A program made the translations under genes and the position numbers. The notes beneath the pieces were generated by a model. It was not told where the DNA came from and ran no database searches. It worked only from the letters and a program-made list of their open reading frames with translations. DNA of 27,059 bases, from positions 1 through 27,059 of the IMG/VR virus record IMGVR_UViG_3300047645_000003, one strand, 5' to 3'. This document shows, piece by piece, positions 290 through 18,257 of the stretch. The DNA is from a virus. Each line of letters begins with the position of its first letter. Position 1 is the stretch's first letter.

Positions 290-1756
290 TCATCCTATAT
301 AATCTTGGCTTCTGGTCGGATGTTGTTGTTTCGTTGTAAAATGGTCGGAAATGTCGGGGCGTAGCGCAGCTGGTAGCGCACTTGCATGGGGTGCAAGGGG
401 TCGCAGGTTCAAATCCTGTCGCCCCGACCATTTATTTTCATTAGCCTGTAATGATTTTAAAGTGGTCGGTTTAGCAAAAGTGTAGCTTTCGTGTAGCTTC
501 TCAACAGTGCTTTCAATTATTCCCGGTTTTGTCTCTGACGTTAAATCACCCAACTTCTTTGCTAGCTTGTTCGATGCCTCTACGTCGCCATCCGTCACGA
601 TTCCGACATAATACTTTCGGGTTGTCTCTGGGCTAGTGTGTCCCATGACACGCGCCAAGTCCCATTCACCCATGACCTTAGCCCCATGCGTTGCAAACGT
701 CCTACGCAGTATTTGCATGGTGACGTGTTTATTTATTTTTGCTGCTTTGACCATCCGAGGAAGGAACCCGCCAAGCTTGGTTAGTTTTTCCCCTTGGGGC
801 GTTGAAAAGACATATTTACCAACGGGCTCAAGCCGATCCACCCAACCAAATCTAGTCGGGCGGTAGAAATGCATTTGGTGAAGAAGTGTTAACAGTGGGT
901 CCGATATGGGAACCGTGCGCCTTGTATCTGTTTTCTCAGCCCATAGATGTATCGCCCTATTATCGAAATCAACGTTTTTCCATTCCAAGTCAAGATGCTC
1001 TCGCAGTCTGAGGCCTGTTAATAGGGTGAAAATAATAACGGACTGTGCCCATGCATTAGGTTTGACCGTGACTTTACCAGTTGTTCCGCAAACGTGCTTT
1101 GATACCGTAGCAGCCAATAAGGCCTTTATTTCTTCAGGGGTTAAATAAACGGTTTCTCCCTTCTGGCATTTGAATAGATAACTTCCAAGCTGTCTGTTTT
1201 GAGTCTTAAAGGGATGGGTAATAATCTTTTCAGATCGCAAAGCCCATTCCAGGGCCGCAGAGCAAAAAGTGACCTCGTTATTAAGAGTCTTAGGGGCAGG
1301 GAATTTAGGCTTTTTTGAATTTGTGGGGTAATAGGGCTCTGTCTGTCGGATGCGTAAATATTCGTCTATCTTGGCAGGGGTTAACTCCATTAAGCGCAGC
1401 TTGCCTAAATGCTCTGTAAGGTGGGCGATAAGACCCAGGTAAGGCGTCATTCCTCGGTAACTGTTTAGGCCGCCCTCTTTACCTTGTGAGTCCTTCAAAT
1501 AGAAGGGAAGCCAATCACCAAGTAAGGGACTATTCTTAGCGGCCTGAGCTTCTACGCCGAAAATAGCCTTCGAGATATGCGCCTCTCCCTTTTCCCGTTC
1601 AAAGCGCTCAAACTCTCTTTTGGCCTCTCTCTTGTCAATAACGTCTTTCCATTCCTCACGCTTTACCGTCTTCTTTCCGTTAAGCACTTGAACGCTACAG
1701 ATATAGGCACGGTATCCGGTCTTATTCTTCCTAGCGCGGAATTCGAGGTAGGCCAT
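290..1756 (-). CDS. int: Phage tyrosine integrase
   Basis: A site-specific recombinase that inserts and excises the prophage at the adjacent proline tRNA. The 488-residue frame has an N-terminal arm-binding-type region (about 1-75), a SAM-like core-binding domain (about 80-190) and a C-terminal catalytic domain (about 200-390). Catalytic positions visible are R250 in TGLRLRE, K275, R351 in ILRRTF, H373 in VMGHTS and the nucleophile Y382 in TTRKYY. The usual HxxR motif reads QILR, so glutamine (348) replaces the first histidine. The start is supported by AAAGGA before the ATG. Residues ~443-468 are antisense to tRNA-Pro(GGG), and the final ~40 residues are probably read-through of the attachment region rather than conserved protein. 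It is last in a leftward group of small genes. Confidence 0.93.
   Translation of the reverse strand: MAYLEFRARKNKTGYRAYICSVQVLNGKKTVKREEWKDVIDKREAKREFERFEREKGEAHISKAIFGVEAQAAKNSPLLGDWLPFYLKDSQGKEGGLNSYRGMTPYLGLIAHLTEHLGKLRLMELTPAKIDEYLRIRQTEPYYPTNSKKPKFPAPKTLNNEVTFCSAALEWALRSEKIITHPFKTQNRQLGSYLFKCQKGETVYLTPEEIKALLAATVSKHVCGTTGKVTVKPNAWAQSVIIFTLLTGLRLREHLDLEWKNVDFDNRAIHLWAEKTDTRRTVPISDPLLTLLHQMHFYRPTRFGWVDRLEPVGKYVFSTPQGEKLTKLGGFLPRMVKAAKINKHVTMQILRRTFATHGAKVMGEWDLARVMGHTSPETTRKYYVGIVTDGDVEASNKLAKKLGDLTSETKPGIIESTVEKLHESYTFAKPTTLKSLQANENKWSGRQDLNLRPLAPHASALPAALRPDISDHFTTKQQHPTRSQDYIG
339..469. repeat. TGGTCGG / CCGACCA repeats around the attachment site
   Basis: TGGTCGG occurs in the same orientation at about 313-319, 342-348 and 463-469. 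Its reverse complement CCGACCA forms the 3' ends of both tRNAs. The 10-base AAATGGTCGG at 339-348 and its perfect complement CCGACCATTT at 424-433 bracket the tRNA-Pro(GGG). Such short inverted copies next to an integrase gene could be core- or arm-type integrase sites, but this is inference from position and symmetry alone. Confidence 0.35.
355..430 (+). tRNA. tRNA-Pro(GGG), likely attachment site
   Basis: Cloverleaf of 76 bases with encoded CCA. The acceptor stem CGGGGCG (355-361) pairs with CGCCCCG (420-426). The anticodon stem CTTGC/GCAAG holds the loop ATGGGGT, anticodon GGG (proline). The whole tRNA is antisense to the last part of the integrase reading frame (about residues 443-468), so the integrase gene abuts or crosses the attachment site. 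tRNA 3' halves are common targets of phage tyrosine integrases, so attL is probably in this 3' half. No second copy of the 3' half is present in the window, so attR lies beyond it. Confidence 0.95.
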
Positions 1757-2123: not shown

Positions 2124-2435
2124 TTAGTCTTGGCAGGCTTCAATTAACCGAAGCCTAATATTTGCATACTTTGCCTTGCGATTTTCCCGATAATTCCATT
2201 GATGCTGTTTTCTCCTTTCGGGGTTCGCTTTATTCCAGGCAACTTTACGGGCGTTTTCGCATTCAGGGCAACGCCTTGTAACGAGAGAATATGGCTTAGG
2301 ATTAGCGGCCTTTGAATCACGCTTAGAATAAAAACGATAATGGCAATGGTGTTTAGGACAAGTCTTGCTACTCCAATTTTCAATATATGTGTCCGTTACT
2401 AAAGCCCATTCACTTTTCTTTTTCTGCTTTTTCAT
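2124..2435 (-). CDS. Small zinc-finger-like protein
   Basis: A 103-residue, strongly basic protein starting MKKQKKKSEW. It shows CPKHHCHYRF (about 25-34) and CPECENARK (about 59-67), a C/H-rich pair that would form one zinc site. A lysine/arginine-rich tail (NPERRKQHQWNYRENRKAKY) follows. This resembles the N-terminal zinc-ribbon and linker of phage HNH endonucleases, but no H-N-H catalytic segment is present. The ATG at 2435 lies two bases after the stop of the upstream HTH gene with AAGGGAT before it, so it is preferred over an in-frame ATG at 2468. Function is unknown; nucleic-acid binding is likely. Confidence 0.6.
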   Translation of the reverse strand: MKKQKKKSEWALVTDTYIENWSSKTCPKHHCHYRFYSKRDSKAANPKPYSLVTRRCPECENARKVAWNKANPERRKQHQWNYRENRKAKYANIRLRLIEACQD

Positions 2436-2437
2436 GG

Positions 2438-2656
2438 CTATCCCTTGATACCGCGACGGTCTACCCATTCCCTTAATTTAACGGGGTCAAACCTTACGGC
2501 CCTGCTGCTCAAAGAGATAAACGGGATAGGGTCCGCAGTAGGGAAGGCGCGTTCTTGCTCAATAATCCGGTATAAACTTCCGGGATGATATCCCAGAAAT
2601 GCCGCAGCCTGCTTAACAGTCCAAAGGCTATCCGCAACTTCTTTTAAAGTACCCAT
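2438..2656 (-). CDS. Small HTH_17/AlpA-like DNA-binding protein
   Basis: A 72-residue protein beginning MGTLKEVADS. It contains the excisionase/HTH_17 pattern WTVKQAAAFLGYHPGSLYRI (about 10-30), then a short wing and RAVRFDPVKLREWVDRR at the C-terminus, the classic ending of MerR-like phage Xis/Cox proteins. The start at 2656 is chosen over an ATG at 2698 because the 21-bp repeat with AGCAGGG sits just before it, as in the sister gene. It is coupled to the following zinc-finger gene by a two-base gap. It could be the true excisionase or a regulator of the operon. Confidence 0.7.
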   Translation of the reverse strand: MGTLKEVADSLWTVKQAAAFLGYHPGSLYRIIEQERAFPTADPIPFISLSSRAVRFDPVKLREWVDRRGIKG

Positions 2657-2657
2657 G

Positions 2658-2678
2658 AAACCCTGCTTTCTGCCCCCT
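2658..2678 (-). repeat. 21-bp leader repeat, copy 2
   Basis: Identical to 2084-2104. It precedes the ATG at 2656 and provides its ribosome-binding site. Confidence 0.75.
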
Positions 2679-2680
2679 GG

Positions 2681-2715
2681 AATGGCCTTTCTTTGCACAG
2701 AAAAGCCATTTTTTT
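2681..2715 (+). terminator. Possible intrinsic terminator for rightward RNA
   Basis: AATGGC-C-TTTC (2681-2691) pairs with GAAA-A-GCCATT (2700-2710) around an 8-base loop, followed by a T run to 2715. This is terminator geometry on the plus strand, opposite to the local genes. It could stop antisense transcription from the host side. Confidence 0.4.
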
Positions 2716-2770
2716 AAGAGATTTTGTTTAAAACTGCCTTCCGGGTAGATCTTCAAGAACAAATGGACGT

Positions 2771-3001
2771 TTAACTTTTTGCTTCTGGTGAGGACTTAAC
2801 AACTTCGAGGGTAGCTTTCAAAATAGCTATTAATTCTTTCTTTGAGACAGCTTTATTATGAAAGGTGTATGAACCCTCATTTTTAATCACAAGGGTGAGC
2901 GCTGGAAAAAAGTGCCCCTTAGAAGTTTTAAAGGAACCGCCATAAGGCTTTAGCAACTGCAATAAATTGAATAAAGCTTCTCCGTGGTTAGTGCTTTTCA
3001 T
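2771..3001 (-). CDS. Hypothetical small protein
   Basis: A 76-residue protein of unknown function. It begins MKSTNHGEALFNLLQLLKPY, has a glycine/phenylalanine-rich middle and ends in an amphipathic helix (ELIAILKATLEVVKSS). No cysteine pairs, membrane segment or recognised motif is visible. The ATG is preceded by AAAGGAC at good spacing. It is the first gene behind the promoter at 3152-3180 and heads the leftward small-gene operon, a position often held by early phage regulators; that is inference only. Confidence 0.6.
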   Translation of the reverse strand: MKSTNHGEALFNLLQLLKPYGGSFKTSKGHFFPALTLVIKNEGSYTFHNKAVSKKELIAILKATLEVVKSSPEAKS

Positions 3002-3151
3002 AAAAATGTGTCCTTTCAGGGCAAAACATTAGCCTCCGCAAAAGGCGGTAAGGTTTTTTGGGTTTAGATGAGGGTGGAACCTTGGGCCGATGCTCAAGGC
3101 TAAAACAAAGCAAAAACAATGCTTGACAGAATGACTTTATCAACTCCCTAC

Positions 3152-3208: not shown

Positions 3209-4423
3209 TCAAGGTGTGGCACCTGTGACGCGCAACCCCGAACCCACTGCCTCCGCTGACACCCCGAAAACCATTTCATCTATCGTCATCGGGGTTTTTC
3301 CTGGCTTCTCCGCCTTGGTAGCAGATCCGTCTTTAGTGGCGTGCGCGCCTTGGCTTCCGGCGCATGGGGCCGACGGAACAGCGGAACGCTTCAGGCGGGG
3401 CTTATACTCGCCTCGGATGGCTTGCAACGCCCAAGCAAACGGTTTTTGGATGCTTTTCTTTTGCTCGGTTGCGCTTGCCAGAACGCCCTCAACGACCTTC
3501 AAGGCCTCTCGGGGGTTGTCGTCCTTTTGTTTCAGCGCAGCGCAGCGAAGGCGGTAAACGTCGGCGGTGGACAGTCCGGGGAGCACGTCACCCAGCTTGT
3601 CCAGGCAAGCCGCAAGACCCTCCTCCTCGCCGTCAAGGGGCGCACCAGCGGCGGCGGAATCCGGGGTTTTTTCCGCCGGTAGCCTTTGCTCGGCAGGGCT
3701 GGCACCGGCTTTGCCGTCAAGGGCGTCCGCTGCCGGGTTTTTTTTCGCCTCGAAGTCCTTGCCGGGCAGGGCTGGAGAACGGCCCCCTATCAGGGGGGAA
3801 ACAACAACTTCCGGGCTGTTGTTGTTTCGTATTTTTACTTCGTTTTGTTGTTTCGTCTTGTTAGTGTCCGCGTGGCGAACATCTCTTGCCGCCACGCGAA
3901 CACGATCTGCCGTGTGGCGAACATCTTCTGTCGCCACGCGGACATCTTCGGTGTGTACATCTTGTGTACACACTGTATCCACACTATGTACATTTTGTGT
4001 ACCTTTTGTGTACACACTGTGCGCGTCTTCGCTGTGCGCGGCGTCTTCTTGGCACATATTCTCGATGTACGCGCATTGCGCCTCCGCTGGGAAATGCTCG
4101 AAGATACGCGCGGGTATGGGAACTTGCGGTTCCAGAAGCGTGTAGCCGTTATGTGGGTGATAACCGGCAGCCGATTTTATTTTGGATACCCGCACAAGTT
4201 CGAATTCTTTCAACAATTTGATGGTTTCGATGACTTTGGACCGGCCTATCCCGGCAAGACGCTGAATCATTTCTTCGGACGGGCAGCATAGACCCGTTTT
4301 TTTGTTTCGACATCTGAGCAATACGGCCAGAACCGCGATTCCATAGGGCCCTAAAGCCCCGCCGTAATGATCGAGGTAGTCGTTTTTAGTTTGAAAAAAA
4401 CCTGCCTTTTTGTTTGAGCTCAC
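3209..4423 (-). CDS. Replication-initiator-like protein with N-terminal HTH
   Basis: A protein of about 404 residues. The N-terminal ~95 residues have the phage replication-protein pattern (YGGALGPYGIAVLAVLLRC, then PSEEMIQRLAGIGRSKVIET, then FELVRV), a winged helix-turn-helix as in lambda-O-like initiators and HTH_36 proteins. The middle (~125-185) is repetitive (TEDVRHTADRVRVAARDVRH) and low in structure. The C-terminal half includes LRCAALKQKDDNPREALKVV and KPFAWALQAIRGEYKP, a helical pattern common in these initiators. GTG at 4423 is preferred because GGAGG lies 7 bases upstream; a TTG one codon earlier is possible. The middle of the gene carries the origin-like array at 3798-4020. It lies immediately downstream of the zinc-ribbon gene. 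Confidence 0.7.
   Translation of the reverse strand: MSSNKKAGFFQTKNDYLDHYGGALGPYGIAVLAVLLRCRNKKTGLCCPSEEMIQRLAGIGRSKVIETIKLLKEFELVRVSKIKSAAGYHPHNGYTLLEPQVPIPARIFEHFPAEAQCAYIENMCQEDAAHSEDAHSVYTKGTQNVHSVDTVCTQDVHTEDVRVATEDVRHTADRVRVAARDVRHADTNKTKQQNEVKIRNNNSPEVVVSPLIGGRSPALPGKDFEAKKNPAADALDGKAGASPAEQRLPAEKTPDSAAAGAPLDGEEEGLAACLDKLGDVLPGLSTADVYRLRCAALKQKDDNPREALKVVEGVLASATEQKKSIQKPFAWALQAIRGEYKPRLKRSAVPSAPCAGSQGAHATKDGSATKAEKPGKTPMTIDEMVFGVSAEAVGSGLRVTGATP
3798..4020. other. Candidate intragenic replication origin
   Basis: Inside the initiator-like gene, in order: an 11-bp perfect inverted repeat (3798-3808/3818-3828); an AT-rich stretch with TTGTTGTTTCGT repeated at 3819-3830 and 3845-3856; two inverted repeats built on CGTGGCG/CGCCACG (9 bp at 3869-3898; 10 bp with one mismatch at 3911-3940); then TGTAC at 3954, 3965, 3987, 3998 and 4009. 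A 15-base direct repeat TTGTGTACACACTGT occurs at 3962-3976 and 4006-4020. The layout parallels the lambda origin inside gene O (iterons plus AT-rich segment). Function is inferred. Confidence 0.5.
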
Positions 4424-4455
4424 CAATCCGCCTCCGCAATTTTCTTACAACCAAG

Positions 4456-4765
4456 CTATACCGCACGCCGGGGCCATCCGCTGGGCTTTTCTTCGATTTC
4501 AGAGGCCCCGCCGACCCGCCCCGGCACTTGCCCCAGCCCGATAAAATCGAGGCCGTAACGCGCTGCAATTCGAAGCGACCTCTCAGATTCCTTTGTTTTT
4601 GGGGGTGTTTTTTTTGCCTGTTTTGGGCTGCCAAAGCCCGGCCACCTCCAAGGCGCCCAGCCGCAAGATTTCGTACATGCCGAACTCACGATGTCCACGG
4701 GAGCAGCGGGGCCAGGTGCTGGTTTCCACACGATGTCCGCAGAGGCCGCATTCAAAGAGCGTCAT
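4456..4765 (-). CDS. Zinc-ribbon small protein, probably frameshifted at an A8 run
   Basis: The frame from ATG 4765 (AAGAGG upstream) encodes a zinc ribbon, CGLCGHRV...CSRGHREFG, within its first ~30 residues, and stops at 4583 as a 60-residue protein. Eight consecutive A's (minus strand, 4615-4608) lie just before that stop. A +1 or -2 shift there joins a second open frame with plausible protein sequence (SERSLRIAARYGLDFIGLGQ) to 4456, about 30 bases before the initiator start. The combined product would be about 103 residues. Either programmed slippage, a real mutation or a homopolymer sequencing error would explain this; the 60-residue short form is the conservative reading. Function is unknown. 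Confidence 0.5.
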
Positions 4766-8218: not shown

Positions 8219-8825
8219 TGACGACTACGCAAACGTTACCCAGCTTGGGGAGCGCTTTGGCCTATCACTGCCAACCATCCGAAAGCTTGTTTCGGGGTTG
8301 GAGCCAATTATTCAGGGTACGCAAAAGCTTTACCCAGTGAAGGCCGTTACAGATCGAATCAACCACAAAGACACGACCCCACCAAGTCATACATTGGCCA
8401 AGGCGCGTCTTACTACTGCCCAGGCCGAACGCGCAGAGTTAAAGCTAGGTCTTGAACGTGGCGAACTTGTCCGGGTTGCAGACGTTACCACCGTTATGTC
8501 AAACGCCTTTATCACTCTCAGAACTCAATTATTAAGCACACCCAATAAATTAGCGGCCCGACTTGAGAACGTCACCAAAGAGCAAGCGGCCAAACTATTA
8601 ACCGTTGAAATCGAAAGACTTTTATATGACCTCGCAAACAATACAGACTCCCTTTATCCAGAAAATCAGGGAAGTGACCAAGAAGAGCCTGCAACCGCCC
8701 CCGCGCCAGACAGTCTCGGAATGGGCAGACAAGTACAGGAAGCTACCACGGGCGACCTCAGCGGAACCGGGACAGTGGCAGACCTCACGGACTCCTTACC
8801 TTCAGGATATCCAGAACAGCCTTAA
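8202..8825 (+). CDS. Terminase small subunit, Nu1/DUF1441-like
   Basis: DNA-recognition subunit of the packaging motor. From ATG 8202 it is 207 residues. It opens with a winged helix-turn-helix (NVTQLGERFGLSLPTIRKLV, about 10-30; then YPVKAVTDRI), a coiled-coil helix (LAKARLTTAQAERAELKLGLERGELV) and a further helical part (VMSNAFITLRTQLLSTPNKL), the Nu1/DUF1441 plan. An in-frame ATG at 8157 is less likely. The last ~66 residues (serine, threonine, proline and glycine rich) overlap the large subunit gene in another frame and are probably not conserved. Confidence 0.8.
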   Translation: MTTPNNDDYANVTQLGERFGLSLPTIRKLVSGLEPIIQGTQKLYPVKAVTDRINHKDTTPPSHTLAKARLTTAQAERAELKLGLERGELVRVADVTTVMSNAFITLRTQLLSTPNKLAARLENVTKEQAAKLLTVEIERLLYDLANNTDSLYPENQGSDQEEPATAPAPDSLGMGRQVQEATTGDLSGTGTVADLTDSLPSGYPEQP

Positions 8826-10539
8826 TGACGTAGACGTTAAAAATATTGTTGTGATGGCTTCGGCGCAGGTCGGGAAAACGGAAGCAGAGTTAAATCTAGT
8901 CGGTTATCTGATCCATCTCGACCCTTGCCCTATTCTTTGCGTACTCCCAACCGTTGACCTTGCCCAGTCTTGGAGCCGTGAACGTTTAACCGGGATGATA
9001 CGGGAGACGGAACCGCTACGGGGTTTAGTAGCTGAGGCGAAAGAGAAGAGCGGGGAAAATACCCTTCTTTCTAAAACCTTCCCAGGCGGAAGCATCGCCC
9101 TTGTCGGTTCAAACAGCCCAGCAGGTCTAGCAAGTCGGCCTATTCGTGTCGTGATATTTGATGAGGTTGACCGCTTTGAGACGAACCCAGGCAATGAAGG
9201 CGACGTAATTGAGCTTGCTACCAAAAGAACCCAAACCTTTTGGAACAGTAAAATTATTATGGTCAGCACGCCCACAATTACGGGCGCTTCCATTATTGAA
9301 GATAGGTTTCTGCAATCCGACCAACGTTATTATCAAGTTCCTTGCTTGGAATGTGGGGCGTTTTCCAAGTTAACCTTTGGCGGCTTGAAGTTTGAACGCG
9401 ATGAAAATAAAAACCTTATTCCTTCTTCGGTTGGTTGGTTTTGCCCACACTGCAACCACAAGCACACCGAAAAAGATAAAACGGCCCTTATCTCAGCGGG
9501 GCAATGGGTAGCAGAGAAGCCTTTCAATGGAACGGCGGGATTCTTTATCAATGAACTCTATAGCCCTTTCTCTACTTGGGAGAAGGTTATTAAAGCCTTC
9601 TTGGCTGCCAAACATTCCCGCTCTAAGGAACGAATGCAGGCCTTCACCAACCTTGTTCTAGGCGAGACTTTCGCAGAACGCGGCGAAGGCGTAGACCATA
9701 CCGGCCTTATCAACCGTATTGAGAAGTACCCCGCCGAAGTACCCGCAGGGGCTTTATATCTAACCGCTTCCGTAGACGTACAGCACGACCGTTTAGAATA
9801 CTTTGTTTTGGGACACGGGAAGAACTCCGAACAATGGGCCATAGCCTACGACTTTATACTAGGCGACCCTGCAAGCCTTGATACCTGGACGGCCTTAGAC
9901 AAAAAGCTTCAACAGCCCTATAAACATGAAAGCGGCCTAAGGCTTTATATCCGTCGCGTATTCGTTGACTCCGGTTATCTCGCTGAAACGGTTTACAGGT
10001 TTGTTAAACCCAGACAGGCAAGAGGAATATTTGCATCGAAGGGGCAGCCGGGAAATAAACCTTTTGTTTCCAGACCGTCATTAAGTAACTCTGCATATGT
10101 AAACCTCTTTCATCTAGGCGTTGACGACGCCAAAAGCGACCTTTATAGCCGTTTAACCCTTACGGAACCAGGGCCGCGATATATCCACTATCCAAATAAC
10201 CCACCTCATGGCTTGTTCTTTGATGATAGATACTTCAGGGGCCTTACTGCTGAAGAAAGGATACAAAGAAAATCAAAGGGTATAGCATCTTATTACTGGA
10301 AAAAGAAATATGAGCGCAATGAACCTTTAGACCTTTACGTTTACGCAAGGGCAGCATTTGAAACGGTCCAGGTAGACCTTATACGCCTTGAAGCCGATCT
10401 AAAGAGGGAAGCCGAAGCCTTGAAACCCCAACCCGTTACACCCACAGCAACACAGCCGCAGAATATTAGGCCTTCTCATGCCGCAAGACCTTCTAGCAAT
10501 TGGGTTATGGGCAATGATGCCGGGAAACCTTGGATTTAA
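8626..10539 (+). CDS. Terminase large subunit, GpA family
   Basis: ATPase and endonuclease that packages the genome into the prohead. From ATG 8626 it is 637 residues. The start motif PPPRQTVSEWADKYRKLP with PGQW...PYLQDI is diagnostic of GpA (lambda gpA-type) terminases. Walker A is ASAQVGKTE, Walker B VVIFDEVDRF. A cysteine cluster (CLECGAF ... CPHCNHKH) gives a zinc site. The C-terminal nuclease begins SVDVQHDRLEYFVLG. TTG 8605 and GTG 8674 are alternative starts. It shares about 200 bases with the small subunit gene in a different frame. The C-terminus ends GKPWI. Confidence 0.95.
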   Translation: MTSQTIQTPFIQKIREVTKKSLQPPPRQTVSEWADKYRKLPRATSAEPGQWQTSRTPYLQDIQNSLNDVDVKNIVVMASAQVGKTEAELNLVGYLIHLDPCPILCVLPTVDLAQSWSRERLTGMIRETEPLRGLVAEAKEKSGENTLLSKTFPGGSIALVGSNSPAGLASRPIRVVIFDEVDRFETNPGNEGDVIELATKRTQTFWNSKIIMVSTPTITGASIIEDRFLQSDQRYYQVPCLECGAFSKLTFGGLKFERDENKNLIPSSVGWFCPHCNHKHTEKDKTALISAGQWVAEKPFNGTAGFFINELYSPFSTWEKVIKAFLAAKHSRSKERMQAFTNLVLGETFAERGEGVDHTGLINRIEKYPAEVPAGALYLTASVDVQHDRLEYFVLGHGKNSEQWAIAYDFILGDPASLDTWTALDKKLQQPYKHESGLRLYIRRVFVDSGYLAETVYRFVKPRQARGIFASKGQPGNKPFVSRPSLSNSAYVNLFHLGVDDAKSDLYSRLTLTEPGPRYIHYPNNPPHGLFFDDRYFRGLTAEERIQRKSKGIASYYWKKKYERNEPLDLYVYARAAFETVQVDLIRLEADLKREAEALKPQPVTPTATQPQNIRPSHAARPSSNWVMGNDAGKPWI

Positions 10540-11402: not shown

Positions 11403-12878
11403 ATGTTTGAATCCTTTTTAAACCGTTTCAGGTCTGTGACGTATGTTAAACGTTATTTTGAAGTGGCGGGAACACAAAACCGCCTCGTAACGGACTGGCT
11501 AAACGGTAACAAAGCCATTGATGCCGCTATCAGGCAAAAGGGACGGGTTCTAAGAGAACGGGCCAGGAATCTTGTAACCGATAACGCCCTAGCTGCTCGC
11601 TACATTCAACTTTTGCGGCAGAACGTTATTGGGGTTGAAGGGTTTACTTTTTCAAATCATGCAACAGACCCAAGCGGCAAGGCCGACGTTTTTGCAAATA
11701 CTGCTATTCAAACCGCATGGATAGTATTTGGTAAGGCTTTTAATTTCTCAGTTTCCGAAGATATAGCCCTTAAAGACATCCTTGATATCGTTCTTTCTGG
11801 ACTTGTAACAGACGGTGAGGCCTTTATACGGCTGGTTAGGGGTAGGGGAAAATTCGGGTTTCAGATCCAATTAATTGACCCCATGTTGCTTGATGAAACC
11901 CTTAACCGTGCCGCAGGTGATGGGGGTAATGAAATCCGTCTAGGCGTAGAGGTTGACCAATGGGGCAAGGCGGTTGCCTACCATTTCCGCAAGCCTTCAA
12001 ATGCAAGCCGCGTTTATGACTTTATCCCTAGCGGTGAGTGGCAGGTTATCCCGGCTTCTGAAATTATTCATGTTTACGACTGGCAGTTTTTAGATCAAAC
12101 CCGTGGTTATACGATGTTGGCCCCTGTAATGGCTGACCTCTGGCAATTACAGAAGTATGAAGAAAGTGAAATTGTAGCCGCTAGGGTTGCCTCTTGTATG
12201 GGCGGCTTTTTCACACAGCCCACAGATGAAAGCCCGACAGGACAGAAAGACCCAGAAACCGGAACCGTTAACCTCGACATGGGGCCGGGGATGTTTCGGA
12301 TGCTGCCAGGGGGGACAAGTTTCACTGCGTTTGAGCCCAAGCACCCAACAAACGCTTATGAAAGTTTTGTTAGTACGGTTAAGCATCGTATCGCTTCCGG
12401 TTTGGGTGTTTCGTACATGAGCCTTACCGGCGACGTTGCAAGCGCCAACTATTCAAGCGCAAGGGTTGGACTTTTAGAGGAACGCGCCTTTTATAAAGAC
12501 CTTCAGCGGCAACTTATTGAGCAGGTCTTAGAGCCCATATTTTCACAATGGCTAATGAGCGCTTTAACCCTTGGCGTTATCAATTTACCTCTTGGGAAAT
12601 TTGACAAGTTTTGCGCCCCGCATTTTGAACCACGTGCATTCCCTTGGGTAGACCCCGTTAAAGATGGGCAAGCCTCTTTACTCATGGTTCAAAACGGCTT
12701 AACCACCTGGCAACAGTATTACGCAGAGCGTGGCCTTGATTTTGACGAAGTAATGAAAAGACGTAAATACGAAAAAGACTATATGACGACTCTTGGACTA
12801 ATAGAAACGGCCCCTATCAATAAGGCTCAGGTATCGACAGATGGAAGCAAAACCTCTGACAAACCCGCAGAAGAATAA
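11403..12878 (+). CDS. Portal protein, lambda family
   Basis: A 491-residue dodecamer-forming portal through which DNA enters and leaves the head. The typical opening is NKAIDAAIRQKGRVLRERAR with NALAARYIQLLRQNVIG. Central signatures are FIRLVRGRGKFGFQIQLIDP and RGYTMLAPVMADL, and the wing/crown motif GVSYMSLTGDVASANYSSAR is diagnostic of the lambda-type family. AAAGGCG precedes the ATG. The last 50 conserved residues (12651-12800) have a diverged second copy at 13376-13525, after the inserted HNH gene, whose start overlaps the portal end by 38 bases. Confidence 0.95.
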   Translation: MFESFLNRFRSVTYVKRYFEVAGTQNRLVTDWLNGNKAIDAAIRQKGRVLRERARNLVTDNALAARYIQLLRQNVIGVEGFTFSNHATDPSGKADVFANTAIQTAWIVFGKAFNFSVSEDIALKDILDIVLSGLVTDGEAFIRLVRGRGKFGFQIQLIDPMLLDETLNRAAGDGGNEIRLGVEVDQWGKAVAYHFRKPSNASRVYDFIPSGEWQVIPASEIIHVYDWQFLDQTRGYTMLAPVMADLWQLQKYEESEIVAARVASCMGGFFTQPTDESPTGQKDPETGTVNLDMGPGMFRMLPGGTSFTAFEPKHPTNAYESFVSTVKHRIASGLGVSYMSLTGDVASANYSSARVGLLEERAFYKDLQRQLIEQVLEPIFSQWLMSALTLGVINLPLGKFDKFCAPHFEPRAFPWVDPVKDGQASLLMVQNGLTTWQQYYAERGLDFDEVMKRRKYEKDYMTTLGLIETAPINKAQVSTDGSKTSDKPAEE

Positions 12879-13470
12879 AGTTTGTAAGCAATGCGGAAAA
12901 TCTAAACCCTTAACACTCTTTCGGCGTCATTCCATAATGAAAGACGGTTTTAGTAATAAGTGCAAGGAATGTACAGGGAAGCGGGATAAGTTATATGAGG
13001 CGACGCACAAAGAACAAATTAAAGAATCTTACGTCAAATATGACGCTTCCCACAGGCTACAGCGGAGACACTTTCAGAATCAGTATTACGCAGCACATAA
13101 AGAACAAAAACGGAACAGCAGATTAAAACAGCGTTTCGGAATTGATGCAGAAGAGTATCAGCGCCTTCTAACTAAGCAGATGGACGGATGCGCTATATGT
13201 GGAACGACCATTCCAGGCGGGCCGGGGAAAAGGAATCCACTTGGTTTTGCAGTAGACCACGACCACAAGACGGGTAAGGTACGGGGGTTATTGTGCAGAA
13301 ACTGTAATACGGGAATAGGTCTATTAAAAGACAAAGTAAGCGTTATTAGAAATGCCGTTGATTATGTGGAACGTTATGCCAATGAAGGACGCCCAAGCCA
13401 ATTTGCTAATGGTTCAAAACGGATTGAAGACTTGGACCCAATATTATGCAGAAATCGGGCAGGACTTTGA
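12841..13470 (+). CDS. HNH endonuclease (endonuclease VII-like), probable homing gene
   Basis: A 209-residue protein: N-terminal zinc ribbon (CKQCGKSKPLTLFRRHS...CKECTGKRDK, about 15-50), a basic helical linker, then a recombination endonuclease VII-type domain with CAICG, FAVDHDHKTGKVRGLL and CRNCNTGIG (about 118-160) supplying zinc ligands and the HNH catalytic histidines. Such genes nick or cut DNA and spread by homing. It begins inside the portal 3' end and breaks the head operon. The last ~31 residues are a shifted-frame reading of the second portal tail, so the original gene probably ended near 13376. Confidence 0.85.
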   Translation: MEAKPLTNPQKNKVCKQCGKSKPLTLFRRHSIMKDGFSNKCKECTGKRDKLYEATHKEQIKESYVKYDASHRLQRRHFQNQYYAAHKEQKRNSRLKQRFGIDAEEYQRLLTKQMDGCAICGTTIPGGPGKRNPLGFAVDHDHKTGKVRGLLCRNCNTGIGLLKDKVSVIRNAVDYVERYANEGRPSQFANGSKRIEDLDPILCRNRAGL

Positions 13471-13624
13471 AGCCGTTGTAAAGCAGCGTAAATATGAGCA
13501 TGACGCCTTGAATAGCTTGGGTCTTTTGCCAGTATCCCCTATTAGCGCAGTCGCACCCAATGACGAAGAAACCATATCAGAAGAGAAAACCAATGAGTCA
13601 AAAGACACAAACAAGGCAAGTTAA
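13376..13624 (+). pseudogene. Second copy of the portal C-terminal tail
   Basis: This frame encodes a portal tail without the body. Over 50 residues, 33 are identical to the end of the intact portal (shared LLMVQNGL, QYYAE, RKYE). It then runs into a different acidic tail (PNDEETISEEKTNESKDTNK) and overlaps the protease start. It has no plausible start of its own and probably came in with the HNH gene from a related phage. Confidence 0.8.
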
Positions 13625-15488
13625 GACCGGGAATTTATACAGGTCGGCCACATTCGATAAATCAGCCATTGACCTAGAAGCCCGTACAGTTGCCTTAACT
13701 TTCAGCTCAGAAACGCAAGAGGTAGAAAGAAGCTTTGGCGTTGAAGTTCTTTCACATGATGCAGGCGCGGTAGACCTATCTCGTTTACAAAATGGGGCTC
13801 CTTCTCTTTTTAACCATAACCCCGATGCTCATATCGGGACCATTGAAGCCGCTTCTATTGACGTAGCAAACAAAGTAGGACGCGCAACCGTTCGCTTTGG
13901 AACCTCTCAATTAGCAGAGGAAAAGTTTAAAGACGTTCAAGACGGAATCCTAACGAAGGTAAGTGTCGGATATCGGACTAACGAAGCCATTGATTCGGGT
14001 ATCCAAAATGAAAACGGCCTTCCCGTTATCCGTATTACCAAATGGATGCCTTTTGAAATCTCCCTTGTGACCATTCCCGCCGATGACTCGGTAGGCGTGG
14101 GCAGAAGTATTGAAGAAGAAACGAATTTATCAATTCGCTCAGAGGGTGGAACCAAAGAGCGACAGGCGCAACCGGAAGCCCTGGCAGGCAACTCAAGCGC
14201 GATTAACCGCAGCACCAATAACGACAAAAATATCGAGGTAGTAAAAATGGAAAACGTCGAATCTATTAAGCCCGGTGAAGAGCGCAAGCGCGTTACGGAA
14301 ATTATGGAACGTGCGAAGCGTTACGCGGCCCAAGTCCCTGAAGCCTACGAATTGGCGCAAAAGGCCGTCGGTGATGGTACCGACTACAGAAGCTTTGGCG
14401 ATGATCTTTTGTCAAAGATTCAAAGCCAGCCCATTCAGGCAAAAGATAGCCTGGGGATGAGCAAGAAAGAAGCCCGTTCTTATAACTTGATGAACGTGGT
14501 TAACGCTCTTTCTGAAGGCCGTCCTTTGGATGGCGTGGAACGAGAAGCCCATGATGAGCTTGTGAAGCGTGGTTTGGGCAAGCGTAACGGCGCCTATTGC
14601 GTGCCTTGCGACGCTTTGAACCTCCGCGCTAGCAACATTACTAAGGCCAGCGGTGGCGCTGCTTTGGTTGGTACGGAACACAGGCCCCAAGACTTCGTAG
14701 ACTTGCTTTACGCACAGTCTGCCCTCGGCGCTTTGAACGTGCCTTTTATTCGTGGTTTGTCTGGGGATATTGATATTCCTAAACTGACTACCGGCACTAC
14801 GGGCTATTGGGTTGCTGAAGACGCTTCTCCTACGGCCTCCGTCCCTGTTACGGGCTCTTTGAACCTCTCGCCTGCAACGGTTGCGGCTTCCGTCACCATG
14901 TCGCGTAAATTGATGAAGCAGTCTAGCCCTTACGTCCAAGATATTCTTATGAATGATGTCTTGCGCGCAATCGCTGACCAAGTGGACAAGAAATTCTTTG
15001 CGGGTACCGGCGCAAGCGGTATGCCCAAGGGTATTGACCAAGCGATTACAGACGCTTCTACGGCGGCTGTTTCTTCGGCCACTACTATTACTTGGCCTCT
15101 TGTGCAGCAATTCATTACTACTTTGCAAACGTTGAACGTATACGGTGGCGACCTGTCTAACATTAAGTGGGTCTTGCCTCCGGCTATGGCGGCTATTGTG
15201 AAGGGTAAGACCCGTGATGCTGGTTCAGGATTCTATTTCATGGACCAAGGCGGAACTATGGCGGGGCATGACTCCTTTATTTCGCCCAATGCCACTACGG
15301 GCCGCATCTATTTGGCTAACTGGACGGATGTAATGCTTGCCGGTGAATGGGGAAACCTTGAAATCGGTATTACAGACGACCCAGCTAACTTCAATAGCGG
15401 GGCTAAGATTATCCGTTGCTTCTATGACGTGAACTTTGGCGCTCGTAGACCTTCGGCTATTGCTTACGCTTCTACTTTTACTGCCTAG
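13593..15488 (+). CDS. Prohead protease-major capsid protein fusion
   Basis: One frame of 631 residues from ATG 13593 (an ATG at 13560 is also in frame). The first ~175 residues are an HK97-type (U35) prohead protease: VALTFSSETQEVERSFG, PSLFNHNPDAHIG with the catalytic-type histidine, DGILTKVSVGYR, and PFEISLVTIPADDSVGVG with the nucleophile-type serine. The rest is an HK97-fold capsid: a helical delta region (EERKRVTEIMERAKRYAAQV), GAYCVPCD, IPKLTTGTTGYWVAEDA, and GASGMPKGID. Capsid could also be made alone from ATG 14247 behind GAGGT (413 residues). The capsid part uses more uniform codons, as in highly expressed genes. Terminator follows. Confidence 0.93.
   Translation: MSQKTQTRQVKTGNLYRSATFDKSAIDLEARTVALTFSSETQEVERSFGVEVLSHDAGAVDLSRLQNGAPSLFNHNPDAHIGTIEAASIDVANKVGRATVRFGTSQLAEEKFKDVQDGILTKVSVGYRTNEAIDSGIQNENGLPVIRITKWMPFEISLVTIPADDSVGVGRSIEEETNLSIRSEGGTKERQAQPEALAGNSSAINRSTNNDKNIEVVKMENVESIKPGEERKRVTEIMERAKRYAAQVPEAYELAQKAVGDGTDYRSFGDDLLSKIQSQPIQAKDSLGMSKKEARSYNLMNVVNALSEGRPLDGVEREAHDELVKRGLGKRNGAYCVPCDALNLRASNITKASGGAALVGTEHRPQDFVDLLYAQSALGALNVPFIRGLSGDIDIPKLTTGTTGYWVAEDASPTASVPVTGSLNLSPATVAASVTMSRKLMKQSSPYVQDILMNDVLRAIADQVDKKFFAGTGASGMPKGIDQAITDASTAAVSSATTITWPLVQQFITTLQTLNVYGGDLSNIKWVLPPAMAAIVKGKTRDAGSGFYFMDQGGTMAGHDSFISPNATTGRIYLANWTDVMLAGEWGNLEIGITDDPANFNSGAKIIRCFYDVNFGARRPSAIAYASTFTA
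14247..15488 (+). CDS. Internal start: major capsid protein alone
   Basis: In-frame ATG at 14247 preceded by GAGGT seven bases upstream, one of the best ribosome sites in the head operon. It would give a 413-residue capsid precursor starting MENVESIKPGEERKRV, at the junction between protease and delta domain. This matches the need for far more capsid than protease. Alternatively the fusion is cleaved after assembly. Confidence 0.5.
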   Translation: MENVESIKPGEERKRVTEIMERAKRYAAQVPEAYELAQKAVGDGTDYRSFGDDLLSKIQSQPIQAKDSLGMSKKEARSYNLMNVVNALSEGRPLDGVEREAHDELVKRGLGKRNGAYCVPCDALNLRASNITKASGGAALVGTEHRPQDFVDLLYAQSALGALNVPFIRGLSGDIDIPKLTTGTTGYWVAEDASPTASVPVTGSLNLSPATVAASVTMSRKLMKQSSPYVQDILMNDVLRAIADQVDKKFFAGTGASGMPKGIDQAITDASTAAVSSATTITWPLVQQFITTLQTLNVYGGDLSNIKWVLPPAMAAIVKGKTRDAGSGFYFMDQGGTMAGHDSFISPNATTGRIYLANWTDVMLAGEWGNLEIGITDDPANFNSGAKIIRCFYDVNFGARRPSAIAYASTFTA

Positions 15489-15922: not shown

Positions 15923-16237
15923 ATGGCTATTAAGTCGGACGTATCAGCCTTCTTCGATTATGAAGCCTTTGCGGTACAGGGTTTTTATCAGAGTGCGACC
16001 GCAAGCGGGGTAGTACCCGTCATATTCGATAACGCGGGAAAGTTTATTGATGAGAACGGTATTCAGTTTGAAACCACTGACCCGACCGCGTATGTGCAGG
16101 CTACAGATGTACCGGCCCCAAGCAATACCGATACTTTGATTATTCCATATCCTGGCGGCGTTACCTACCACGTTACGAAGGCAGACCCTTCAGCAGATAA
16201 CGCAATATTTACGCTGTCCCTTACTAAGGTTTCCTAA
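15923..16237 (+). CDS. Head-tail connector, gpFII-like
   Basis: A 104-residue protein with the gpFII-type plan: an N-terminal helix (DVSAFFDYEAF), VVPVIFDNAGKF, then TAYVQATDVPAPSNTDTLII with PGGVTYHVTKADPSADN (lambda gpFII-type strands, compare its LFVRTDEVRQLRRGDTLTI). It joins the filled head to the tail. ATG 15923 is preferred over an in-frame 15899 start that overlaps the preceding gene. Its stop overlaps the next start (TAATG). Confidence 0.7.
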   Translation: MAIKSDVSAFFDYEAFAVQGFYQSATASGVVPVIFDNAGKFIDENGIQFETTDPTAYVQATDVPAPSNTDTLIIPYPGGVTYHVTKADPSADNAIFTLSLTKVS

Positions 16238-16701
16238 TGTCCAGTCTTCGCCAACAAATTGTAGACGCTATTAAGGCGCGGCTTGTGGGTATTGACACAG
16301 GTTTTGGTTACAACACCAATGCGGGGCTACATATCAGCACTTGGCGAAATAAGCCTTTTGAACTTAAAGAAATGCCAGGGATTAACCTTTCTGATACCAA
16401 AGAAACGCAAGAAGCTTGGAACCTCGCACCAAACGGCGGCACTTGGCGCAGAACGTTAACAATAGAAATAGGTTTTGCTGCTGGTTCTGCTTCTAGCGCA
16501 GGTGTTGACGTACTCGGTAGGCAAGTAGAAGCCGACATTGAAGCCGCTATAAAATTAGATCCGACTTGGGGCGGTTTAGCGGAATGGTCAACCCCGGTTT
16601 CTAGTGAACTGGGAGTAGACCAGGGAGCCGACGCGGTTTGTGCGGGAAAACTAACCTTTAACGTTATCTATCGTACTGATGCCTGGAATTCTAACGCTTA
16701 A
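16237..16701 (+). CDS. Tail terminator/minor tail protein, gpU-like
   Basis: A 154-residue protein starting MSSLRQQIVDAIKARLVGID, with RTLTIEIGFAAG and VLGRQVEADIEAAI then FNVIYRTDAW. This strand-helix-strand arrangement is typical of gpU-type tail terminators, which stop tail-tube growth and receive the head. The start overlaps the connector stop. The family assignment rests on pattern and on position just before the tube gene. Confidence 0.65.
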   Translation: MSSLRQQIVDAIKARLVGIDTGFGYNTNAGLHISTWRNKPFELKEMPGINLSDTKETQEAWNLAPNGGTWRRTLTIEIGFAAGSASSAGVDVLGRQVEADIEAAIKLDPTWGGLAEWSTPVSSELGVDQGADAVCAGKLTFNVIYRTDAWNSNA

Positions 16702-16718
16702 TTATTAAGAGGTAAATC

Positions 16719-17690
16719 ATGTCTCAATCGTATGGTTACAATTTTAGTTTAGGTGTCGGCGTAGAAACGACTTACGGCACAGCAGTTGCGCCAACTTCTT
16801 TTATGGAAGTTACAGAGGAAAGTTTAAACTATAAAAACGGGGTTAAGGCCCGCACGGTGTTAGGCAAGTCCTACAGTGACGCCTATGTGGGCGAAAAGCA
16901 GAGCGTTGACGGCTCTATTTCTTGGCCTGCAACGTATCAGAACGCGGCAGAGGAAACCCTTTTAAAGTCTGCCTTTGGTGCATGTTCTTCGGCTATTTCT
17001 ACGGGCGTAGTCTATGACCATACGTTTACCTTATCGGATGCCCTCACAGAGCGCGGCCTTTCTGTCTATGTTGACACAGACTCAACCCACCTTGGCGGAA
17101 CTACGGCCCAACAGTTTGTAGGGTGCGGGGTTTCGTCTCTCAAAATCAGTCAATCCGTAGAAGGTTATTTGTCTCTGTCTGCTGATATCGTAGGCAAGGG
17201 CCATAATTTAATTGCCCGTGTTACTCCATCCATTCCAAGCTTTAAAGGTGTGACCTGGGACCAAGTATCAAGCCTTACTATTGGCGGCACTGCTTATAAC
17301 GCAAGGGTTACAGAGTTTCAGATTGATAACTCTCTTGCCTCGGATCGCTTCAACCTGGGAAGCCGTCAACGTGTCGGACTTGGGCGCGGTGGTGTTCGTA
17401 AGGTATCGGGGAAGGTGTCTATCGAACTTGCCGACACAGCCCTTTTAACTGCCTTCAAGGCCGGTACAGAGGTTGCAATCTCTTGCGTTTGGACTGGGGC
17501 ACTTGCGGGAAGCAGCCTTAACTACTCTAAGACTTTGACCCTTCCGCGCTGCATTCTCACGGCTGACGTGCCAAGCGTTAAGGATGTTGGCCCAATCGTT
17601 ATTGATTATCCGTTTACGGCCTTTGCCGTTGAAGGCCAAGGAAATGAAATTCAATTGGTTTGCCGCAACTTATCTACAGCCGTAGCTTAA
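16719..17690 (+). CDS. Major tail tube protein
   Basis: A 323-residue protein beginning SLGVGVETTYGTAVAPTSFM, the signature opening of the phage tail tube family (Phage_tube_2). Alternating beta strands follow (YVGEKQSVDGSISWPATYQN; SSLKISQSVEGYLSLSADI; VSGKVSIELADTALLTAF). It polymerises into the hollow siphovirus tail. AGAGGT precedes the ATG; the tail chaperone gene follows. Confidence 0.85.
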   Translation: MSQSYGYNFSLGVGVETTYGTAVAPTSFMEVTEESLNYKNGVKARTVLGKSYSDAYVGEKQSVDGSISWPATYQNAAEETLLKSAFGACSSAISTGVVYDHTFTLSDALTERGLSVYVDTDSTHLGGTTAQQFVGCGVSSLKISQSVEGYLSLSADIVGKGHNLIARVTPSIPSFKGVTWDQVSSLTIGGTAYNARVTEFQIDNSLASDRFNLGSRQRVGLGRGGVRKVSGKVSIELADTALLTAFKAGTEVAISCVWTGALAGSSLNYSKTLTLPRCILTADVPSVKDVGPIVIDYPFTAFAVEGQGNEIQLVCRNLSTAVA

Positions 17691-17716
17691 CCACAGTCCC
17701 TATATGAGGTGCCTTT

Positions 17717-18067
17717 ATGAGTCTCAAAGATATTAAAAGCAGAAGCCGCAAGACGAAAGAAATCACTCTGCCGGTATGCGGTCTAGTTGTAAATCTAAAA
17801 GAACCCACAGTAGGCGAAAAGTTGCCCCTTGTGAGTAACAAGGCCGTTACTTCTGAAGAGCAGGCCCAACTAACCGCCGACCTTATCGCCCTTTGTTTTG
17901 GTTCATGGAATGAAGAAGGGGCGCTAGTTTCCAAGCCTTCCAAGGATTGCACAGAACTAGAGTTATCAGTTTATGACCTGGGACAGGACGACTTTACAGC
18001 CCTGGCAGAGGCCGTTACCTCTCTTTTAGGGGTGCAGGCTGACGCCGAAACTAAAAGCGCTGCATAG
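17717..18067 (+). CDS. Tail assembly chaperone, upstream frame (G-like)
   Basis: A 116-residue protein (MSLKDIKSRSRKTKEITLPV...) with ITLPVCGLVVNLKEPTVGEK and LTADLIALCFGSWNEEGAL, as in gpG-type chaperones that coat the tape measure. GAGGTGCC lies before the ATG. It is between tube and tape-measure genes, the conserved site. Its 3' end overlaps a second frame that continues to 18257. Confidence 0.75.
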   Translation: MSLKDIKSRSRKTKEITLPVCGLVVNLKEPTVGEKLPLVSNKAVTSEEQAQLTADLIALCFGSWNEEGALVSKPSKDCTELELSVYDLGQDDFTALAEAVTSLLGVQADAETKSAA

Positions 18068-18257
18068 GAATGAAACAACTGTAGTAAATATTCATATGCT
18101 TGCCCGTGAATATGGAGTCCTGCCCACAGAGATAATGGATATGCCGGAAAGTGTATTTATGGAAAACCTGGCTATATACAACATAGGGCAACGGTATTTA
18201 AACAAGCAGGCCCGACGCTCAAGCAATGAAGTAGAGGTAAGACCTGGCAGGCTCTAG
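18030..18257 (+). CDS. Tail assembly chaperone, downstream frame (T-like), by frameshift
   Basis: A 75-codon open frame, offset by +1 (equivalent to -2) from the G-like gene, that opens at 18030 exactly at a GGGG and continues past the G stop. The distal part (IHMLAREYGVLPTEIMDMPE, then AIYNIGQRYLN) has the style of GT-type second chaperones. It has no ribosome site of its own; ATG 18096 would give 53 residues. Candidate slip sites are GGGG at 18029-18032 and AAAA at 18053-18056. Confidence 0.65.
   Translation, partial: GCRLTPKLKALHRNETTVVNIHMLAREYGVLPTEIMDMPESVFMENLAIYNIGQRYLNKQARRSSNEVEVRPGRL

Follow-up and report, generated by a model that had tools for sequence, protein, structure and literature searches.

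The closest known case to the locus described here is provided by mobile open reading frames (mORFs) of fungal mitochondria that carry a foreign C-terminus; the parts of the published account used here cover atp6 of Allomyces macrogynus and atp6, atp9, cox2 and nad3 of a Glomus sp. (PMC3630166). In that account, a nuclease gene of the LAGLIDADG or GIY-YIG family has a diverged, in-frame gene end on one side and the displaced native end on the other, the hybrid gene is still functional, and the ends described are 3' ends only. In phages, the described outcomes of homing are co-conversion, split genes (PMC2988022) and collaborative homing (PMC6083498). The seg and mob endonucleases of T4, which are of the GIY-YIG or other HNH families, home without an intron, often start within the upstream gene and carry flanking target sequence along, the outcome being co-conversion of the flanks with no displaced copy (PMC2988022). 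In Aeh1 nrdA/mobE, T4 gene 60/mobA and phage 25 gene 43, the nuclease gene lies within an essential phage gene that is split into two reassembling parts (PMC2988022). F-CphI of cyanophage S-PM2 is encoded by a free-standing gene just after its target, psbA, which it targets at the intron site; the enzyme has the EndoVII catalytic motif in a C-terminal position, and psbA is protected by the intron (collaborative homing; PMC6083498). No displaced psbA end was detected in S-PM2, and a search of the open-access literature for phage homing endonucleases accompanied by a displaced gene end found none, with most subscription papers outside its scope.

The phage locus analyzed here resembles the fungal mORFs in that the nuclease gene has a diverged copy of the gene end on either side, the first of them continuing the frame of the portal gene body, and the displaced copy is proposed to be the native one. 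It differs in the nuclease, an EndoVII-type HNH protein, and in residing in a phage genome, so that it appears to work like the mORFs without being a member of that group; furthermore, the phage cases include mirror images in which 5' ends are involved. Like F-CphI, the nuclease is free-standing and follows its putative target, but the portal gene has no intron; like the seg and mob genes, it overlaps the upstream gene at its start, but a displaced copy is present. Unlike the split phage genes, the portal gene stays whole, and the displaced end (hereafter, the stub) duplicates its 3' part.

An endonuclease gene between two portal ends

The window, that is, the whole stretch of DNA analyzed (27,059 nucleotides of IMG/VR record IMGVR_UViG_3300047645_000003), contains a lambda-type head module with the following features:

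8605-10539: large terminase
11403..12653, plus strand: body of the lambda-type portal gene, read as resident (Pfam Phage_portal_2, E 5e-86; phrog_21)
12654..12878, plus strand: tail 1, the in-frame portal end, evident directly from the sequence and read as imported with the HNH gene
12841..13470, plus strand: Endonuclease VII-type HNH gene (PF02945, Recombination endonuclease VII, E 3e-22)
13376..13385, plus strand: junction of the HNH gene and the displaced portal end, where HNH homologues stop and portal homology starts; predicted edge of the cleavage site
13379..13624, plus strand: tail 2, a second portal end that has no portal body attached to it (phrog_537 match), read as the displaced native end
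13593..15488, plus strand: protease-capsid fusion gene (Peptidase_S78 and Phage_capsid)

Elsewhere in the window, two tRNA-Pro genes (209-284 and 355-430, anticodons cgg and ggg) lie at its start, and an integrase ORF (290-1756, minus strand) runs antisense across the second of these, which suggests the tRNA attachment site of a prophage. On visual inspection, the Cys-rich ORF at 2124-2468 (minus strand) is similar to the N-terminal region of EndoVII-type HNH proteins; it has no family match and is possibly a broken nuclease. The ORF at 3209-4426 (minus strand) contains short VHTEDVR-like repeats and has a GC content of 0.558, above that of the rest of the window.

The initial annotation described an intact portal gene, an HNH gene starting within its last codons and a second portal tail right behind, and this anatomy holds. 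The portal ORF (11403-12878) is complete, both by direct sequence and by the Phage_portal_2 match, and the HNH ORF that begins at 12841 overlaps its last 38 nt. Portal homology reappears directly 3' of the HNH gene, within an ORF that spans 13352-13624: it starts at the Pro/Met codons at 13379-13384 and extends to 13624, matching profile positions 154-231 of the portal family phrog_537 (E 6e-11). The tails are identical at 32 of the 47 codons compared (32/50 in another comparison), so the 33 of 50 residues given originally was essentially right; their similarity (E 4e-23 in a local search) is far beyond chance, and the period of 725 nt is borne out by the Lys codons at 12660 in tail 1 and 13385 in tail 2. 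The duplicated part begins at the conserved portal motif W-V-D-P, which places the junction at about 13376-13385. The part of the HNH frame that is its own ends at about 13380-13381 with ...DYVERYA, near the point where its homologues stop (...SKYA or ...LQKHK followed by the stop codon); 29 unrelated codons then run to 13470, out of frame with tail 2, as had been noted.

The HNH gene and tail 2 are joined with almost no homology and at no repeat, and the longest run of identical bases between the tails is 14. For an IMG/VR record that is possibly incomplete, a chimera assembled from two co-occurring phage strains in the metagenome comes to mind, but these short identities and the repeat-free join leave it a negligible probability; moreover, the same architecture exists in the cultured phage Lbo-JY46 (see below), which argues against an assembly artefact.

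The HNH protein retains the catalytic motif CxxC...DHDHKTGKVRGLLCRNC intact and conforms to the EndoVII pattern CX2-4C ... DHDH ... R ... CX2C (CAIC...VDHDHKTGKVRGLLCRNC in the window protein, P0001). It is 36% identical to F-CphI over 130 aa (E 1e-22), and its neighbours among solved structures are Hpy99I and T4 endonuclease VII. The motif is C-terminal (residues 104-178, aligned to residues 10-87 of T4 endonuclease VII), as it is in F-CphI (PMC6083498). A resolvase of the T4 endonuclease VII type, in which the motif is N-terminal, was rejected on this ground. By motif and similarity, that is, as far as sequence comparison goes, the protein belongs to the F-CphI/EndoVII family. No HNH gene follows the portal gene in any of 80 portal relatives (0/80), and the HNH gene is thus an optional part of the module, free-standing and adjoining its putative target.

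Neither a group I intron nor any other RNA family was detected in 12550-13650 at the gathering or at a relaxed threshold, in a search that finds three introns in a cyanophage psbA contig (L055, below), and this speaks against a group I intron with a homing endonuclease. The same result bears on the idea that both ends are used, as alternative portal C-termini produced by splicing or frameshifting or with tail 2 expressed separately. In favour of this idea, the reading frame of tail 2 stays open for 80 codons and has an ATG in frame right at the beginning (13382), and each tail has the look of a sequence under selection; however, not only an intron but also a convincing ribosome site before 13382 is missing, recent arrival accounts equally well for the intact frame, and the stubs in other cases (14-34 codons) could give no plausible product, which makes dual use highly improbable.

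The probable resident end and the divergence of the tails

In lambda-type relatives, the portal end typically overlaps the next gene: among the 77 portal relatives with a visible neighbour gene, the first start of that gene precedes the portal stop in 72, as is also seen in annotated phages of Roseobacter and Ruegeria. Within the window, only tail 2 overlaps the next gene, with the protease-capsid start at 13593 and the tail 2 stop at 13624; the ATG at 13593 is preceded by a purine-rich sequence, and an alternative start is found at 13560. Because only tail 2 keeps the overlap typical of the family, it is most likely the resident's own end, with tail 1 and the HNH gene forming the insert. The GC content at third codon positions agrees with tail 2 being native, with weak separation (0.405 for tail 1 and 0.417 for the HNH gene vs 0.469 for tail 2 and 0.488 for the capsid gene).

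The differences between the tails are distributed as 9/11/32 over the three codon positions, with synonymous sites saturated. Scored against a family profile built from the tails of 70 relatives, tail 1 obtains 57.3 and tail 2 50.7, compared with a median of 9.1 and a maximum of 27.5 for 200 simulated copies of tail 1 drifting to the same divergence; stops are present in 177 of these 200 copies, and tail 2 has none. The third-position bias and the profile scores indicate that the tails diverged in working genes rather than by drift after duplication, most simply each in a different phage.

This pattern is the main obstacle to a simple tandem duplication of the portal end within this genome, followed by insertion of the HNH gene between the copies and divergence. 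Each tail is the nearest relative of the other in all data searched, closer than any sampled portal, in a clade that is hardly sampled; the initial annotation had named such closeness, understood as simple tandem duplication, as a finding against homing. The closeness is literally there, but the duplication does not follow from it, because a free copy would drift, whereas the differences are concentrated at third positions and tail 2 fits the profile better than any of the 200 simulations and is free of stops. Tandem duplication is accordingly considered very unlikely.

Portal relatives were reached only by alignment search, with a best portal identity of 36-39% in the searched collections; single-protein searches with the portal and with tail 2 in viral and genome contigs gave no match. 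The initial annotation had proposed to look for phages with an intact portal that terminates in the tail 2 sequence; none emerged from these collections, which hold no close relative, and neither did a phage with an empty site or one with tail 1 and the HNH gene without tail 2.

Similar arrangements at other phage genes

A screen of ~160 EndoVII-HNH loci for a fragment of one neighbour gene lying across the HNH gene from that neighbour yielded four further cases, all with the same nuclease family, at psbA, a glycosyltransferase-like gene, a small RusA-like gene and NAMPT; three of the four are mirror images, in which the 5' end is replaced:

L055, cyanophage psbA: complete psbA tail at about 2391-2463, HNH gene at 2550-3071, second psbA tail from about 3080
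L143, mirror image: displaced head of 34 residues, HNH gene, intact gene with its own head
L342, mirror image: displaced head of 14 residues, then the HNH gene, then an intact small gene
L359, Leptolyngbya phage Lbo-JY46 (PP438436.1), mirror image: NAMPT head at about 15977-16021, EndoVII gene at 16079-16558, intact NAMPT gene from 16548

In L055, homology of the second tail to phage psbA genes starts 8 nt after the HNH stop, and the two tails differ by 5/4/17 over the codon positions. The edge of the stub is at most a few bases away from the intron sites of psbA; the 3' exon there starts with CACAAC in L055 and apparently with AATGCACACAAC in S-PM2. The heads in L143 are 91% identical and differ by 2/4/26; the glycosyltransferase-like nature of the target is guessed from its sequence. 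In L342, the HNH frame passes through the displaced head out of frame, and the intact small gene is one that we take to be RusA-like. Lbo-JY46 is a cultured isolate deposited as a complete genome, with a displaced NAMPT head of 15 residues and the whole arrangement contained within 15977-18182 of the record.

Among about 30 cyanophage psbA loci with HNH genes 82-94% identical (L094-L128), no second psbA tail was found; there, the HNH stop is directly followed by many different sequences, and psbA introns are present in several contigs. Locus L033 has a diverged, apparently non-coding repeat of ~190 nt on both sides of the HNH gene (about 3747-3936 and 4548-4741), without a match to any Rfam family; it possibly reflects the same process at a non-coding target and is not counted as a case. 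Several candidates were rejected: in S-SRP01, the best phage match of the HNH protein, the apparent second nrdB tail proved to be a small ORF after the HNH gene that is unrelated, and the flanking matches in L073, L021, L118, L336 and L068 appear to be HTH repeats, nucleases encoded nearby or short matches due to chance.

Flanking repeats of any kind are not enriched at HNH loci (10/148 vs 7/105 control ORFs). When the geometry is restricted, the enrichment is mild (4/150 HNH loci vs 3/642 controls, p 0.03, or 0.08 without the window); L055, which the geometry filter missed because its last psbA exon is short, brings this to 5/150 (p 0.008) when added by hand. The matches among the controls appear to have other causes, namely psbA intron repeats and paralogues. 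The strength of the case is the detailed anatomy rather than the count.

Recurrence also bears on module shuffling, in which illegitimate recombination between related phages would by chance have fused the resident portal to a block that ends with tail 1 and the HNH gene, with the nuclease as a passenger. The mosaic nature of phage genomes makes such events familiar, and the nearly homology-free join of the HNH gene to tail 2, at a gene edge, resembles viable chance joins. Against this, the arrangement recurs at five genes unrelated to each other, always with a nuclease of this one family and with the stub adjoining the nuclease gene, and the edge of the psbA stub coincides with a region that the family is known to target (PMC6083498); we regard chance joining as unlikely.

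Probable intronless homing and its implications

The initial annotation explained the locus by homing that carried the portal end of a donor phage along. This is the best-supported reading, helped by the four parallels, and its polarity can now be specified, tail 1 being the imported end and tail 2 the resident one. Judging from the sequence evidence, the locus probably originated by intronless homing of a free-standing, F-CphI-like endonuclease of the EndoVII type, the mobile unit consisting of a gene end (tail 1) and the HNH gene. The endonuclease would cut the resident portal gene at the conserved site W-V-D-P|M-K-D-A, with the cut predicted at 13376-13385, a position homologous to about 12651-12660. 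Repair from a related donor phage would then attach tail 1, together with the HNH gene, to the portal body of the resident: one broken end may invade the body of the donor gene and copy the donor gene end along with the HNH gene, and the other may be attached immediately after the HNH gene or, in the case of a donor that had a stub beforehand, pair with that stub as a homology arm. The portal protein would be kept whole, with a foreign C-terminus, and tail 2, severed at the cleavage site, would remain just downstream as a stub, its edge marking the cut, abutting the HNH gene so tightly that the stop codon of the latter was lost. The divergence of tail 1 would shield the new hybrid gene from cutting. 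Ordinary break repair does not account for a join that lies exactly at the boundary of the nuclease gene.

We put forward tentatively, as a possible generalization, that EndoVII-type homing genes of phages are self-capping units, each made up of the nuclease and a diverged copy of the gene end (3' or 5') that separates the cut from the nuclease gene. Such a cap would stand in for the intron, provide resistance to cutting and leave a stub that marks the cleavage site; most stubs would later be lost, a few per cent of the loci retaining one.

If the homing explanation is right, displaced stubs would make it possible to read from sequence alone where uncharacterised homing endonucleases of phages cleave, and the target predicted for each such enzyme would be directly testable, with Lbo-JY46 as a case open to laboratory tests. 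The foreign C-terminus mechanism of mitochondria would also apply in phages, with a different nuclease family and to gene ends on the 5' side, and selfish nucleases would have a route for exchanging the ends of essential genes between phage lineages.
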